From Kibdelosporangium persicum (lineage in GTDB: Bacteria > Actinomycetota > Actinomycetes > Mycobacteriales > Pseudonocardiaceae), in NCBI RefSeq assembly GCF_013280595.1, contig NZ_JAAATY010000049.1, forward strand, positions 1-56,480: a stretch of 56,480 bases of DNA, given 5' to 3'. The notes beneath the pieces are model-generated. The model worked only from the letters and a program-made list of their open reading frames with translations. It searched no databases and was not told the origin of the DNA. Of the stretch, positions 26,822 through 51,316 are shown piece after piece; position 1 is the first letter of the stretch, and each line of letters begins with the position of its first letter. The position numbers and the translations under genes were made by a program.

Positions 26822-27292
26822 TCAGGTGACAGCGGCCCGGTCGGACACGGCCGCCGCCTCGACCTTCTGCTTGATGAGTCGCATCTGCACAGGGGTGTTG
26901 TGGTTGAGCCGCGCCTGCATGGCCATGTCGTCCACCGGCGCCTGCGGCTTCATCTCGAAGTCCTGCACCCAGCGCATCCGCACGCCGTTGTCGGTCTGCA
27001 GGTATTCCCAGTAGATCCACATGTACTTGAACGGCCCGGTCTCGATGCGCTGGGACCGTACGGTTCTGGTCGACTCGTCCGGCGTGCGCGCGGACACCCA
27101 GCTCCATATCTTGCCGTTCTCGTCCGGATGCAGCGCGAGCCGGAAGACGATGGTCCCGTCACGCCGGGAGAGAATCTCCGCCTCCGAGTACTCGCTGAAC
27201 AGCCGAGGCCACGACTCGATGTCGTTGGTCATGTCCCAGACCAGGTCCATCGGTGCGTCGATGACGATCTCGTTGTCGGTGTGTCCCGCCAC
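26822..27292 (-). CDS. SRPBCC polyketide aromatase/cyclase (whiE ORFVI type)
   Basis: 156 residues from GTG 27292, 1 nt after the ACP stop. It is a single START/SRPBCC domain: an N-terminal [23 protein letters not shown], a beta sheet with [14 protein letters not shown] and [28 protein letters not shown], and a C-terminal helix with [16 protein letters not shown]. This is the monodomain aromatase/cyclase of spore-pigment and pentangular pathways, which folds and aromatises the first ring (C9-C14) on the ACP-bound chain. Following CLF-ACP, it keeps the whiE order IV-V-VI. Confidence 0.92.
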
Positions 27293-27293
27293 G

Positions 27294-27554
27294 TCAAACC
27301 CTCGCCTTCGCCACCATGGTGTTGATGAACTCGACGGCTCTGGCAGGCGTCGGCATCTCCGACGCGGCGTCGTCGGAGATCTGGACGCCGTACCTGCGCC
27401 CGACCTGCCCACACAGCTCCAGCACCGCGAGGGAGTCGTACCCCAGGTCGTCGAACTCCACGTCGGCGATGTCGCCGTCGAGGTCCACGCCCTCGTCGAC
27501 ACCCGTACTGGCTCGCATGATCTCCCGCAGATCGTCCAAAGTGAACTCGCTCAT
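27294..27554 (-). CDS. Acyl carrier protein of type II PKS
   Basis: 86 residues. ATG 27554 overlaps the CLF stop as ATGA. The phosphopantetheine site is [10 protein letters not shown] with S41. The usual four-helix length and acidic helix II are present. It carries the growing poly-beta-keto chain between KS-alpha/CLF and the cyclases. It is the only ACP in the window. Confidence 0.96.
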
Positions 27555-28816
27555 CCGCACTCTCCCTCCGCTCTGTCGGCTTCCGGCCGCCTGAGCACGA
27601 GCGCCGCGTTGAACCCGCCGTGGCCCCTGGCCACGACGAGCGCCGTGTTCAGCCGGGCGTCCCGTGGCTGATCTGTCACCAGGTCGATCTCGCACCCGGC
27701 CGCCAGGTGCGTCGGCCCGGCCGTATGCGGGATGACGCTGTCGCACAGGGACAGCAGCGCGGTCGCGACATCCAACGCGGCGCCCCCGCCGTAAAGCCGG
27801 CCGGTCAACGTCTTCGGCACGGTCACCGGCACCCCACGCGGGCCGAAAACCTCCGCCAGGGCCCGGGCCTCGGCCAGGTCCGCTTCGGGGACCCCGGCGC
27901 CGTCGGCGAACACGACGTCCACATCGGCCGGTCCGACATCCGCGTCCGCCAGTGCGCGCTCGATCGTGCGGCGCAACGCGGGCGGCCGGTCCGATCCTGG
28001 CGGAGGGTCGAAACCCGCCGCGTATCCCGCGATGATCCCGTAGCCGTGGCCCATCCCGCGGGCGGCGGCACCAGCCGCGCTTTCCAGCACCAGGATCGCC
28101 CCGCCCTCACCCGGCAGATAACCGGACGCGGCGGCGTCGAACGGGAGATAAGCCCGTGCTGGGTCCTCCACAGTGGACAGGTGGCCGTTGGTCAGCTGCG
28201 CGACGAGGCCGTAGGGGCACAACGACGCGTCAGTGCCGCCGCTGACCACCAGCCGGGAACCTGTCCGCAGCAGTCGCCGGGCCTGTCCGAGCGCGTCCAG
28301 CCCACCGGCCTGCTCACAGCACAGCACTCCGCAAGGGCCCCGCATACCGTGCCGGATGGAAATTTGCCCTGTAGTCGCCGCGTAGAACCAGGCGATCGAC
28401 TGGTACGCGCCGACCCAGGACGGGCCGTTGAGGTACAGCCGTTCCATCTCGTGCTGGCCGAACTCGGTCCCGCCCGACGAACTCGACGTGACCACGGCCA
28501 TCTCGTACTCGGGCAGCTCGGCCGGATCGATCCGCGCGTCGGCGAGCGCGGCAGCGGCCGCCGCCAAGCCGAGGTGCGTCCAGTGGTCGGTCTGCGGGAT
28601 CAGCCGGCCCGGTACGTGGTCCTTGGCGGCGAACCCGGGCACCTGACCGGCGAACCGCACCGGATAGGACGTCGGATCAAAACGGTTGATCCGGCTTATC
28701 CCCGACTTGCCCGCCAGTACCGCGTGCCAGTGTGCCTCGACGCCGGCTCCGGTCGGTGCCAGCACACCGATGCCGGTCACCACGGGATCGGTGACCGTCC
28801 CGGACGTGCTCGTCAC
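27551..28816 (-). CDS. Chain length factor (KS-beta)
   Basis: 421 residues from GTG 28816 (MTSTSGTVTD), with GGGAAAGG 4 nt upstream. ATG 28837 or GTG 28855 are also possible. It has the ketosynthase fold, but the active Cys is replaced by Gln at residue 169 (CCEQAGG), the hallmark of CLF. The C-terminal half lacks the His motifs. CLF sets chain length as heterodimer partner of KS-alpha. Remarkably, KS-alpha is not upstream. The 143 nt before it belong to no gene and the next gene is an O-methyltransferase. KS-alpha is 21 kb away on the other strand. Confidence 0.93.
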   Translation of the reverse strand: MTSTSGTVTDPVVTGIGVLAPTGAGVEAHWHAVLAGKSGISRINRFDPTSYPVRFAGQVPGFAAKDHVPGRLIPQTDHWTHLGLAAAAAALADARIDPAELPEYEMAVVTSSSSGGTEFGQHEMERLYLNGPSWVGAYQSIAWFYAATTGQISIRHGMRGPCGVLCCEQAGGLDALGQARRLLRTGSRLVVSGGTDASLCPYGLVAQLTNGHLSTVEDPARAYLPFDAAASGYLPGEGGAILVLESAAGAAARGMGHGYGIIAGYAAGFDPPPGSDRPPALRRTIERALADADVGPADVDVVFADGAGVPEADLAEARALAEVFGPRGVPVTVPKTLTGRLYGGGAALDVATALLSLCDSVIPHTAGPTHLAAGCEIDLVTDQPRDARLNTALVVARGHGGFNAALVLRRPEADRAEGECG

Positions 28817-28959
28817 CGCGCCTTTCCCGGTAGGCATCGGGATGCTTTTCACCACGTCCCCACACTCGCTTTCCGGTCTGGAGACCATCTCGAAACCGGC
28901 TCGACGGCACTCAGGTGGTCCTGTTGGGGGAGGGAGCCGATCCCGGCGTGTCACGGACG

Positions 28960-49288: not shown

Positions 49289-49305
49289 CCGAATGGAGGC
49301 TGACC

Positions 49306-49641
49306 GTGCACCGCACACTGATCGTCGCCAAGCTGCGCACCGATGATCCCCGGACCATCGCCGACGCCTTCGGCGAATCCGACGGCTCACCACTTCCCCA
49401 CATGATCGGGGTGTCCCGGCGGACCCTGTTCACCTTCCATGACTTGTACTTCCACCTCGTGGAGGCCGAGCAGGACATCTCGCCGAACCTGTACAAGGCA
49501 CGCAGCCACCCGCTGTACCAGGACCTCAACCAGAAGCTGGCGAAGCTCGTGGCGCCGTACGACCCCGGCTGGGCGGAACCGAAGGACGCCATGGCGTCGC
49601 CGATCTACGTGTGGACCGCGCGGGACGGGAGGGTCCAGTGA
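49306..49641 (+). CDS. TcmI-type polyketide cyclase (whiE ORFVII type, third copy)
   Basis: 111 residues from GTG 49306, with GGAGG upstream. It reads HRTLIVAKLRTDDPRTIADAF and then RRTLFTFHDLYFHLVEAEQDI. This is the short 105-112 residue TcmI form found next to KS-alpha in spore-pigment and pentangular loci. It is distinct from the longer copies at 36250 and 38030. The stop overlaps the cupin start (GTGA). Confidence 0.9.
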   Translation: MHRTLIVAKLRTDDPRTIADAFGESDGSPLPHMIGVSRRTLFTFHDLYFHLVEAEQDISPNLYKARSHPLYQDLNQKLAKLVAPYDPGWAEPKDAMASPIYVWTARDGRVQ

Positions 49642-50066
49642 CCGCGACGCGGAGGCTGAAGGTCCATATCGACGAGGCGGTGCCGAACCATCGTCGTGGC
49701 GGGGACATCAGGGTGACTCTCAGCCCGAAGACCGTGGGGTCGACCTCCGGATTCGGCGGCGTGCTGCTGCTCGCGCCCGGCGAGTTCGTGACCGAGCACT
49801 ACCACCCGTACTCCGAGGAGTTCCTGCACGTGATCACCGGTGACCTGGAGATGTCACTGGACGGCGAACCGGTCGCGCTGGCGCAGGGCGACTCGCTGAT
49901 CGTGCCGATCGGCGTGCGGCATCGTCTGGTCAACGTGGGCGGACAGACCGCGCGAGTGGTGTTCCACCTGTCCCCGTTGGCTCCGCGGCCCGAGCTTGGC
50001 CACGTGGACACCGAGCAGCTGCCCGCACCGGACGCACCCCACCCGGACGTCGGAGGACCCCGGTGA
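49638..50066 (+). CDS. Cupin-domain polyketide cyclase (whiE ORFII type)
   Basis: 142 residues from GTG 49638, overlapping both neighbours by 4 nt. Single cupin barrel with metal ligands [17 protein letters not shown] (His, His, Glu) and the second motif GVRHRLVN. WhiE-ORFII/RemF-like cupins assist folding of long polyketide chains. The order cupin-KS-alpha matches whiE II-III. Confidence 0.9.
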
Positions 50067-51316
50067 ACCGGACGGCCGCCATCACCGGGATCGGTGTGGT
50101 GGCGCCGGGCGGGATCGGCCGGGAGGCGTTCTGGGAACTGCTGACCGCGGGCCGCACCGCCACCCGCCGGATCACCCTGTTCGACCCCACGAAGTTCCGC
50201 TCGCGGATCGCCGCCGAGGTCGACTTCGACCCGAAGGAGGCAGGCCTTTCCGCGCAACAGGCCCGGCGCATGGACCGGGCCGCGCAGTTCGCCACGGTGT
50301 GTACCAGAGAGGCGGTCGCCGACAGCGGCGTCGACCTCGGCGAGCTTGAGCCGGAACGGATCGCGGTCAGCATCGGCAGTGCCGTGGGCTGCACCATGGG
50401 GCTGGAGGAGGAGTACGCGGTCCTGGCCGACGAGGGCCGCCGCTGGCTGGTCGATCACACCTACGGCGTGCCGCACCTGTACGGCTACATGGTGCCGAGC
50501 ACGCTGGCCGCGGAGGTGGCATGGGAGGTGGCGGCCGAGGGACCGACCGCCCTGGTCTCCACCGGGTGCACGTCCGGTTTGGACGCGGTGGGACACGGGG
50601 CTGCGCTCATTGAGGAGGGCACGGCGGACGTGGTGCTCGTGGGTGCGACCGACGCACCACTGTCCCCGATCACCTCCGCGTGCTTCGACGCCATCCGGGC
50701 CACGTCGCCGAACAACGACGACGCGGAGCACGCCTCCAGGCCGTTCGACGCCAAGCGGGACGGGTTCGTACTCGGGGAGGGCGCCGCTGTTCTGGTGCTG
50801 GAGGACACTGAGGCCGCCCGCCGCCGAGGTGCTCGGATCTACGCGACCATCAGCGGGTTCGCCAGCCGCAGCAACGCATTCCACATGACCGGGCTGAAGC
50901 CGGACGGACGCGAGATGGCCGAGGCCATCCGGGTCGCGCTCGACCGTGCGCGGATCGACCCGTCCGAAGTCGACTACATCAACGCGCACGGCTCCGGCAC
51001 GAAGCAGAACGACCGGCACGAGACCGCCGCGTTCAAGCGCGCCCTCGGGCAGCATGCCTACGAGGTTCCGGTCAGTTCCATCAAGTCGATGGTCGGGCAT
51101 TCGCTCGGCGCGATCGGCTCGATCGAGGTCGCGGCGTGCGCACTGGCTCTGGACCGTCAGGTCGTCCCGCCGACCGCCAACCTCCACAACGCCGATCCGA
51201 CGTGTGACCTGGACTATGTGCCACTCACCGCCCGGGAGCACGACATGCGTGTGGTGCTGAGCGTGGGCAGCGGTTTCGGTGGTTTTCAGAGCGCGATGGT
51301 GCTCTCGCGGGCCTGA
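50063..51316 (+). CDS. Ketosynthase alpha of type II PKS
   Basis: 417 residues from GTG 50063, overlapping the cupin stop. Complete catalytic triad: C169 (STGCTSG), H309 (NAHGSGT) and H346 (GHSLGAIGS). The fold is of the whiE-III subgroup. Forms the heterodimer with the CLF encoded at 27551-28816. No CLF gene follows it: after its TGA there are 357 nt of non-coding DNA and then a radical SAM gene. Normally KS-alpha and CLF are adjacent and overlapping, so the separation is exceptional. Confidence 0.96.

Follow-up and report, generated by a model that had tools for sequence, protein, structure and literature searches.

In the available parts of a 2025 review, the ketosynthase KS-alpha and the chain length factor (CLF) of type II polyketide synthases (PKSs) are described as an obligate heterodimer (PMC12664062), and a 2023 catalogue, as described in the sections of its text available, retained only KS/CLF pairs located within 2 kb (PMC10132072). 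The described systems closest to the locus studied here are the clusters for xantholipin (xan), lysolipin (llp) and MBL-AB01. According to the published descriptions available in part, rather than to sequences, they share with it a type II minimal PKS with cyclases, an Asn-synthetase-like amide synthetase, an acetyl-CoA carboxylase trio, several monooxygenases and O-methyltransferases (PMC9327801, PMC12838262). However, the accessible text on lysolipin has llpD, llpE and llpF surrounded by cyclase genes and amplified with one primer pair (PMC6164072), and that on MBL-AB01 gives consecutive locus tags for KS, CLF and acyl carrier protein (ACP) (PMC12838262), whereas KS-alpha lies 21 kb from CLF in the window, by which we mean the whole stretch of 56,480 nucleotides from Kibdelosporangium persicum (contig NZ_JAAATY010000049.1) that was analysed. 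The kind of system is known, and the split arrangement is a variant for which searches on split, separate or rearranged KS/CLF found no description in the open-licence literature; reports elsewhere are possible.

We propose, with good confidence in the explanation as a whole, that the minimal PKS is carried by two half-operons, that their separation was inherited, that a later inversion of the block from OMT1 to AnO2 (an O-methyltransferase gene and an anthrone oxygenase-type gene) is private to the window's lineage, and that both halves are co-activated by a Streptomyces antibiotic regulatory protein (SARP).

Two proposed half-operons for one minimal PKS

At this locus the starts of KS-alpha and CLF are 21.24 kb apart and the two genes are divergent, facing away from each other. 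Their halves comprise the following genes.

50063..51316, + strand: KS-alpha, a ketosynthase with the Cys motif, open throughout; motifs STGCTSGLD, NAHGSGT and SMVGHS
49611..50066, + strand: cupin, its stop overlapping the KS-alpha start
49306..49641, + strand: cyclase of the Cyclase_polyket family (PF04673)
48605..49288, + strand: SDR3, a short-chain dehydrogenase/reductase (SDR), first gene of the KS-alpha cassette; start uncertain (48581, 48590, 48605 or 48626)
27551..~28822, - strand: CLF (KS-beta), open, with several possible starts; CEQAGG, with Gln where KS-alpha has Cys
27294..27554, - strand: ACP, by Pfam, open
26822..27292, - strand: polyketide cyclase, behind ACP
21072..26789, - strand: rest of the CLF-side run, namely anthrone oxygenase-type protein, ketoreductase (KR), ABM monooxygenase, carboxyltransferase, biotin carrier and biotin carboxylase

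By motifs and Pfam, the window contains the components of a type II minimal PKS, with a KS-alpha carrying the Cys motif, a CLF with Gln instead, and an ACP. We take STGCTSGLD (with its Cys), NAHGSGT and SMVGHS to be active-site motifs of KS-alpha and assume a corresponding role for CEQAGG in CLF. The side-by-side placement of KS-alpha and CLF, which is usual and dispensable for function, is absent. KS-alpha starts with GTG within the overlap with the cupin stop and is the last gene of the cassette SDR3-polyketide cyclase-cupin-KS-alpha (~48.6-51.3 kb). CLF heads the run CLF-ACP-cyclase-anthrone oxygenase-type-KR-ABM-acetyl-CoA carboxylase genes, and the run behind it has an identical order in the related clusters G101, G128, G151 and G146. 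Between KS-alpha and CLF lie methyltransferases, monooxygenases, P450s, an Asn-synthetase-type amide synthetase, transporters and a glycosyltransferase. Relative to the ordinary order cupin-KS-alpha-CLF-ACP-cyclase, cyclase, cupin and KS-alpha are kept together, as are CLF, ACP and cyclase, whereas the halves themselves are separated and point in opposite directions, away from one another.

A preliminary description of this DNA had placed KS-alpha far from CLF on the opposite strand, and had noted several ambiguous CLF starts and no coupled gene downstream of KS-alpha. These points stand: both genes are open, CLF has several in-frame candidate starts, and the next open reading frame taken as a gene starts at 51674. 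The cupin and KS-alpha that it named together are both present, but the cassette is longer and begins with SDR3 and the cyclase. It took whiE-type clusters as its reference for the usual order, and the gene content found here resembles that of polycyclic xanthone clusters. Its expectation that KS-alpha and CLF need separate promoters agrees with separate, divergent half-operons. In our proposal, SDR3-cyclase-cupin-KS-alpha and CLF-ACP-cyclase-...-acetyl-CoA carboxylase would be the two half-operons encoding the minimal PKS, and the separately transcribed KS-alpha and CLF would still join as one heterodimer.

Distribution and descent of the separation

Adjacent genes are the rule among relatives. 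A genome scan with CLF yielded at least 543 relatives, and among the best 80, which were retained as named loci, a KS-alpha match lies directly upstream of CLF in 76 (one locus, L071, ends at a contig edge); the four loci without an adjacent KS-alpha belong to Nonomuraea wenchangensis, N. aurantiaca, N. pusilla and Amycolatopsis rubida. A CLF search of 390 genomes from the window's family gave matches at 1e-100 in 181. KS-alpha was placed in 38 + 52 genomes, 85 of them from this family search, and the family count covers the 117 listed CLF places in these 85 genomes, other genomes and the window's own being excluded; the sample is biased toward CLFs resembling that of the window. KS-alpha is located ≤300 bp upstream on the same strand in 97 of the 117 places and is not in the other 20. 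Fourteen of these exceptions are split places (G179 by 1.98 kb, the others by >4 kb), 13 of which fall inside the window's clade and one (G221) outside. The remaining six are G160, G124 and G088, where KS-alpha follows CLF on the same strand at 2.2 kb, G119, with a 24-kb split, G227, whose gap is 1.2 kb, and G017:C5, where no KS-alpha match was found on the contig at the threshold used. The distance between KS-alpha and CLF exceeds 2 kb in 17 of the 117 listed places, and the 2-kb limit of the 2023 catalogue would miss them.

Two kinds of arrangement among these exceptions have features of their own. At G160:C4 and G088:C152 the order is cyclase-cupin-CLF-ACP-cyclase-KR-ABM-KS-alpha, and the 2.2-kb gap is found likewise at G124:C10. 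At G119:C46:155017-181706 (L231, L232) a more distant split has CLF (60%) and KS-alpha (64-65%) divergent, and the 24 kb between them include ACP and Asn synthetase matches.

The clade comprises 17 split clusters, the window and 16 others. Eleven are divergent like the window, with 4.4-21.2 kb between the genes, four are convergent and two have both genes on the same strand. All 17 have KS-alpha and CLF matches that read through without a stop up to their final few residues, where three CLF matches (G151, G146, G218) contain the only stops. Within the window's family, members come from g1, g11 (the genus that holds A. rubida), g12 and g16; three Nonomuraea of another family also belong, and at least five genera including the window's are represented. 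The window groups with clusters of g11 and g16 and apart from the clusters in its own genus (G214, G218, G216); hence, exchange of the clusters between genera is likely.

The descent of the separation was followed in a concatenated tree of 20 proteins from 42 clusters, based on sequences and not on gene order. The window and the 16 other split clusters form one clade (100/98), sister to the adjacent-type clusters G001-G003 (99/99), and the window is sister to the six clusters G201, G096, G101, G128, G151 and G146 (100/100). On this tree the split label takes a total of three changes, G221s and G160 counting separately from the clade, and none of 500 shuffles was as good. A tree of tailoring genes also unites all 17 (99), and the window and its six nearest relatives are one group in this tree (100) and in the CLF-side tree (100). 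The adjacent sisters G001-G003 have the cyclase-cupin-KS-alpha cassette as well. In G001 and G002 SDR3 lies another ~2 kb upstream, and in G003 it was not found. All three differ from the window in that KS-alpha is directly upstream of CLF and the tailoring operon is elsewhere. Judged from synteny and trees, the separation was probably inherited from an ancestor common to up to 16 other clusters. The preliminary description had proposed a split by one inversion and had named relatives with the same split as evidence that would refute it; such relatives were found, in one clade, and the proposal is not sustained.

Several observations weigh against a single inherited split. The 42 clusters were picked by hand, comprising the split ones then known except G088 and G124, plus selected adjacent ones. 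The window and its six nearest relatives need two changes in the cassette tree, and for all 17 clusters the CLF-side tree needs three changes and the cassette tree two. Single-gene trees do not recover the split clade: with weak support and counted on 20 split rows, CLF needs five changes and KS-alpha eight, and both place G130 beside the adjacent-type G011 (87), which is absent from the concatenated tree. In G130, KS-alpha follows AnO2 and CLF comes 18 kb on, and the gene-order comparison found no cupin or cyclase by its KS-alpha. G130 is the least secure member of the clade and may be a separate case.

A second KS-alpha/CLF pair in the genome, in ordinary adjacent order at C13:155738-158196, raises the alternative that the window's KS-alpha is not the partner of its CLF and that each pairs with another protein in trans. 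A second KS-alpha beside a CLF had also been named in advance as evidence against the preliminary reading. It exists, but it belongs to a different cluster, its identities to the window pair being 68% and 59-60%, and this second KS-alpha has its own CLF alongside. Moreover, the window's KS-alpha and CLF have common nearest relatives, the KS-alpha being 82-89% identical to those of the six nearest split clusters, and both halves are found within one cluster in all 17 members of the clade. Pairwise distances of KS-alpha and of CLF correlate at 0.94 among the 17 split clusters and at 0.80 among 20 adjacent ones, as expected when partners are inherited together; in the control, KS-alpha versus cyclase distances gave 0.82 (split) and 0.76 (adjacent). 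Pairing in trans is the least probable of the alternatives that we weighed.

A probable inversion beside CLF

The region between the half-operons differs in order from that of the nearest relatives, and the features involved are as follows.

28960..37979: tailoring block, with OMT1 (- strand), then KR2, FMO1, luciferase-like, FMO2, PTR2 transporter, SchA1, NAD-binding and AnO2 (+ strand)
38030..38548, - strand: SchA2 (SchA/CurD-like), outside the inverted block
47380..48519, - strand: EryCIII-like glycosyltransferase, divergent from the KS-alpha cassette
28906..28960: CLF-side inversion junction between OMT1 and CLF, in 0 of 28 other clusters
37980..38030: far inversion junction between AnO2 and SchA2, convergent, in 0 of 28 other clusters

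In the order of the G101 type, read with CLF forward, KS-alpha, cupin, cyclase and SDR3 are reversed, glycosyltransferase, P450, OMT2 and SchA2 are forward, OMT1 is reversed, and KR2, FMO1, luciferase-like, FMO2, PTR2, SchA1, NAD-binding, AnO2, CLF and ACP are forward. Relative to this order, the nine-gene block from OMT1 to AnO2 is turned round in the window (~28.9-38.0 kb); in addition, P450a, Asn synthetase, TetR and MFS genes stand between the glycosyltransferase and P450. The window's order allows 465 single inversions, and each was scored by shared gene adjacencies against every one of 28 other clusters. A gene called X47 (47500-48318, + strand) in the first annotation was wrong, being antisense to the glycosyltransferase, and served as a position marker in gene-order comparison and in this scoring. 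Inversion of OMT1 to AnO2 is the sole best of the 465 for G201, G096, G101, G128, G151, G146 and G218, adding two adjacencies in each case. Among nine adjacent-type clusters, G001 and G002 each gain one adjacency by it, six gain none, and with G003 one is lost. The inversion of 28.82-51.32 kb put forward in the preliminary description, although arithmetically correct, adds no adjacency with the six nearest relatives or G218; with the nine adjacent-type clusters it gains one each, the junction of KS-alpha and CLF being built in, and never two. Thus, its idea of a single inversion holds in so far as one end lies just upstream of CLF, but the inversion spans ~28.9-38.0 kb and, by the tree, did not part KS-alpha from CLF.

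The direction of change was considered against the alternative that one inversion of ~28.82-51.32 kb did part KS-alpha and CLF, so that the window is a relict of that state and its relatives arose by a flip of OMT1-AnO2. A single inversion indeed separates the window from an adjacent order, and another single inversion from the order of its relatives. When 28.82-51.32 kb is inverted, the gene order resembles those of G001 and G002 and the adjacencies shared with them rise from 15 to 16 of 23, which equals the gain from the block inversion. In a hand count on the tree with inversions only, a derived window needs three events and a relict four, a margin of one. However, the window is nested within the split clade, and 15 of the 16 other members have a tailoring gene other than OMT1 directly upstream of CLF and reading with it (for G130 no listed gene passed). 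The convergent pair SchA2-OMT1 is missing from the window and present in 11 of the 28 other clusters, including one (G221s) outside the clade. Furthermore, the AnO2 stop is only 5-20 nt from the best SARP-type repeat (described below) in G101, G128, G146, G390, G086 and G127, and 37-91 nt from it in G096, G151, G218 and G201, although in G101, G146 and G151 the repeat agrees with the template at only 10 of 12 positions. Such short distances are expected of one old junction, and together with the SchA2-OMT1 pair in G221s they favour a derived window. We regard a relict window as unlikely.

The private inversion is also open to objection, as it costs one adjacency with each of G003, G160 and G088 and is seen in a single contig of a draft assembly. 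That assembly has 89 contigs, of which C49 holds the window, and the inverted block could be a mis-join, or the cluster a dead remnant. The split itself is no assembly artefact, however, since it is also present in one-contig genomes (G151, G098, G146, G214 and G086 among the other 16), and the KS-alpha, CLF and ACP genes are open. No inverted repeats ≥28 bp that could drive a flip were found in 26-54 kb (seed 14). Assembly error or decay is therefore very improbable as an explanation. Inverted repeats were likewise rejected as the cause of the inversion, since in addition the neighbourhoods of the window's two inversion junctions gave no mutual match with E <0.1. The neighbourhoods of the two breakpoints of the 28.82-51.32 kb inversion share a 30-base same-strand match (E 0.005) and a 14-base inverted match (E 0.067).

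The window thus most likely combines an old shared split with a younger private inversion that starts beside CLF, as gene order and trees suggest. This inversion would have put OMT1 in the place of AnO2 upstream of CLF, the order being given by synteny and the direction of change being the likelier one. The OMT1-AnO2 block consists of two arms that read outward from the central gap between OMT1 and KR2, and a gene would hence read toward CLF in either orientation. A putative promoter of CLF would have remained with CLF throughout. For the origin of the relatives' order, an adjacent ancestor such as G378, with tailoring operon, cassette and CLF, may be envisaged; two nested inversions sharing their CLF-side end, or one transposition of the cassette, would be required. 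The inversion of the preliminary description may correspond to such a first step, but in an ancestor.

Regulation, gene content and significance

Sequences preceding both half-operons suggest how the halves could be expressed together.

19095..21020, + strand: SARP/AfsR-like regulator (BTAD and NB-ARC), candidate shared activator
28878..28894, - strand: SARP-type direct repeat TTCGAG-N5-CTCCAG before CLF, with a third heptamer upstream; best site of the window
48542..48558, - strand: SARP-type direct repeat CTCGAG-N5-TTCCAG between the glycosyltransferase and SDR3, at the head of the KS-alpha cassette

SARP operators are described, in the available part of the source, as heptameric direct repeats with 4-15 nt spacers and classical 11-bp units (PMC10972967). 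The window's putative sites resemble them in having two or three heptamers with 11-bp spacing in the gaps before operons; they differ in that their consensus was derived from these clusters and the sites are known from sequence only. The direct repeat YTCGAG-N5-YTCCAG, with 11-bp spacing, occurs upstream of CLF in many clusters, and a scan for perfect scores gave 31 sites in 29 clusters (window included), whereas three simulations gave 3, 0 and 3. When the window is left out of the matrix, its sites before CLF and at the cassette head rank first and second of the window. Among the 15 other clade clusters scored (G130 was left out), the cassette-head site ranks 1-3 in nine (G201, G101, G128, G151, G146, G390, G086, G127, G179), and the site before CLF ranks 1-4 in 12.

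Against this regulatory reading, the template was widened after the CLF-upstream sequences of relatives had been viewed, a first and stricter SARP pattern having found no site in the window. Because the template was drawn from CLF-upstream sites, hits on the CLF side are no independent test, and the KS-side sites alone are independent. The score of the window's KS-side site is reached somewhere in 14 of 60 window shuffles and is not significant alone; hence, its position, and not its score, is the evidence. This repeat also points to the glycosyltransferase and not to SDR3. Moreover, six of the 15 clusters have no top-three site at the cassette head (ranks 7 in G218, 8 in G391, 14 in G392, 36 in G096, 43 in G098 and 541 in G214), and three have no top site before CLF (167 in G179, 332 in G392 and 473 in G391).

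In the adjacent-type G378 a repeat is already located between KS-alpha and CLF, and in G001-G003 none was seen there in the site ranking. The G378 repeat suggests that a promoter for CLF itself may predate the split. Heptameric direct repeats with 11-bp spacing before both half-operons, together with a SARP gene in the cluster, are what a SARP regulon should contain, and the cluster's SARP most likely co-activates both halves through these repeats.

On gene content, the cluster is a polycyclic-xanthone-like type II PKS cluster. Along with the minimal PKS it has an Asn-synthetase-like amide synthetase, acetyl-CoA carboxylase genes, FAD monooxygenases and O-methyltransferases, and its P450s, anthrone oxygenase-type proteins and glycosyltransferase are further xanthone-like content. 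Xanthone formation in such clusters is the work of a Baeyer-Villiger monooxygenase of XanO4 type; the window's FMO1 and FMO2 are FAD_binding_3 proteins. Several functions are present in pairs, namely anthrone oxygenase-type proteins (26325-26789 and 37530-37979), SchA/CurD-like proteins (36220-36630 and 38030-38548) and SDRs (25539-26321 and 30180-30917), each pair on opposite strands, and O-methyltransferases (28960-30108 and 38424-39545). Directly after KS-alpha, a B12-binding radical SAM protein (51674-53566, + strand) with two P450 genes behind it is nearest to the KedN5 family of C-methyltransferases, at 304.5 bits and under the curated cut-off of 700; none of 28 compared clusters has a match at 1e-8, and among the 80 named loci matches of 32-33% were found only in L052 and L081. 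Adjoining the cluster, 13687-17787 (+ strand) encodes a large protein in which WD40 repeats follow a trypsin-like domain.

The 17-cluster clade, G221s and perhaps G119 raise the idea that a wide split of the minimal PKS is a stable arrangement that has evolved repeatedly and been exchanged horizontally, a generalization that we put forward tentatively and rate slightly below an even chance. On this view, KS-alpha and CLF would be under separate promoters, which in the clade are probably read by one SARP. Co-translation from one operon would then be dispensable, and the dosages of KS-alpha and CLF would be tunable apart. Surveys demanding KS and CLF within 2 kb would have hidden this split class. 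Finally, a natural clade with distant KS-alpha and CLF operons lets the role of co-translation or matched dosage be tested.

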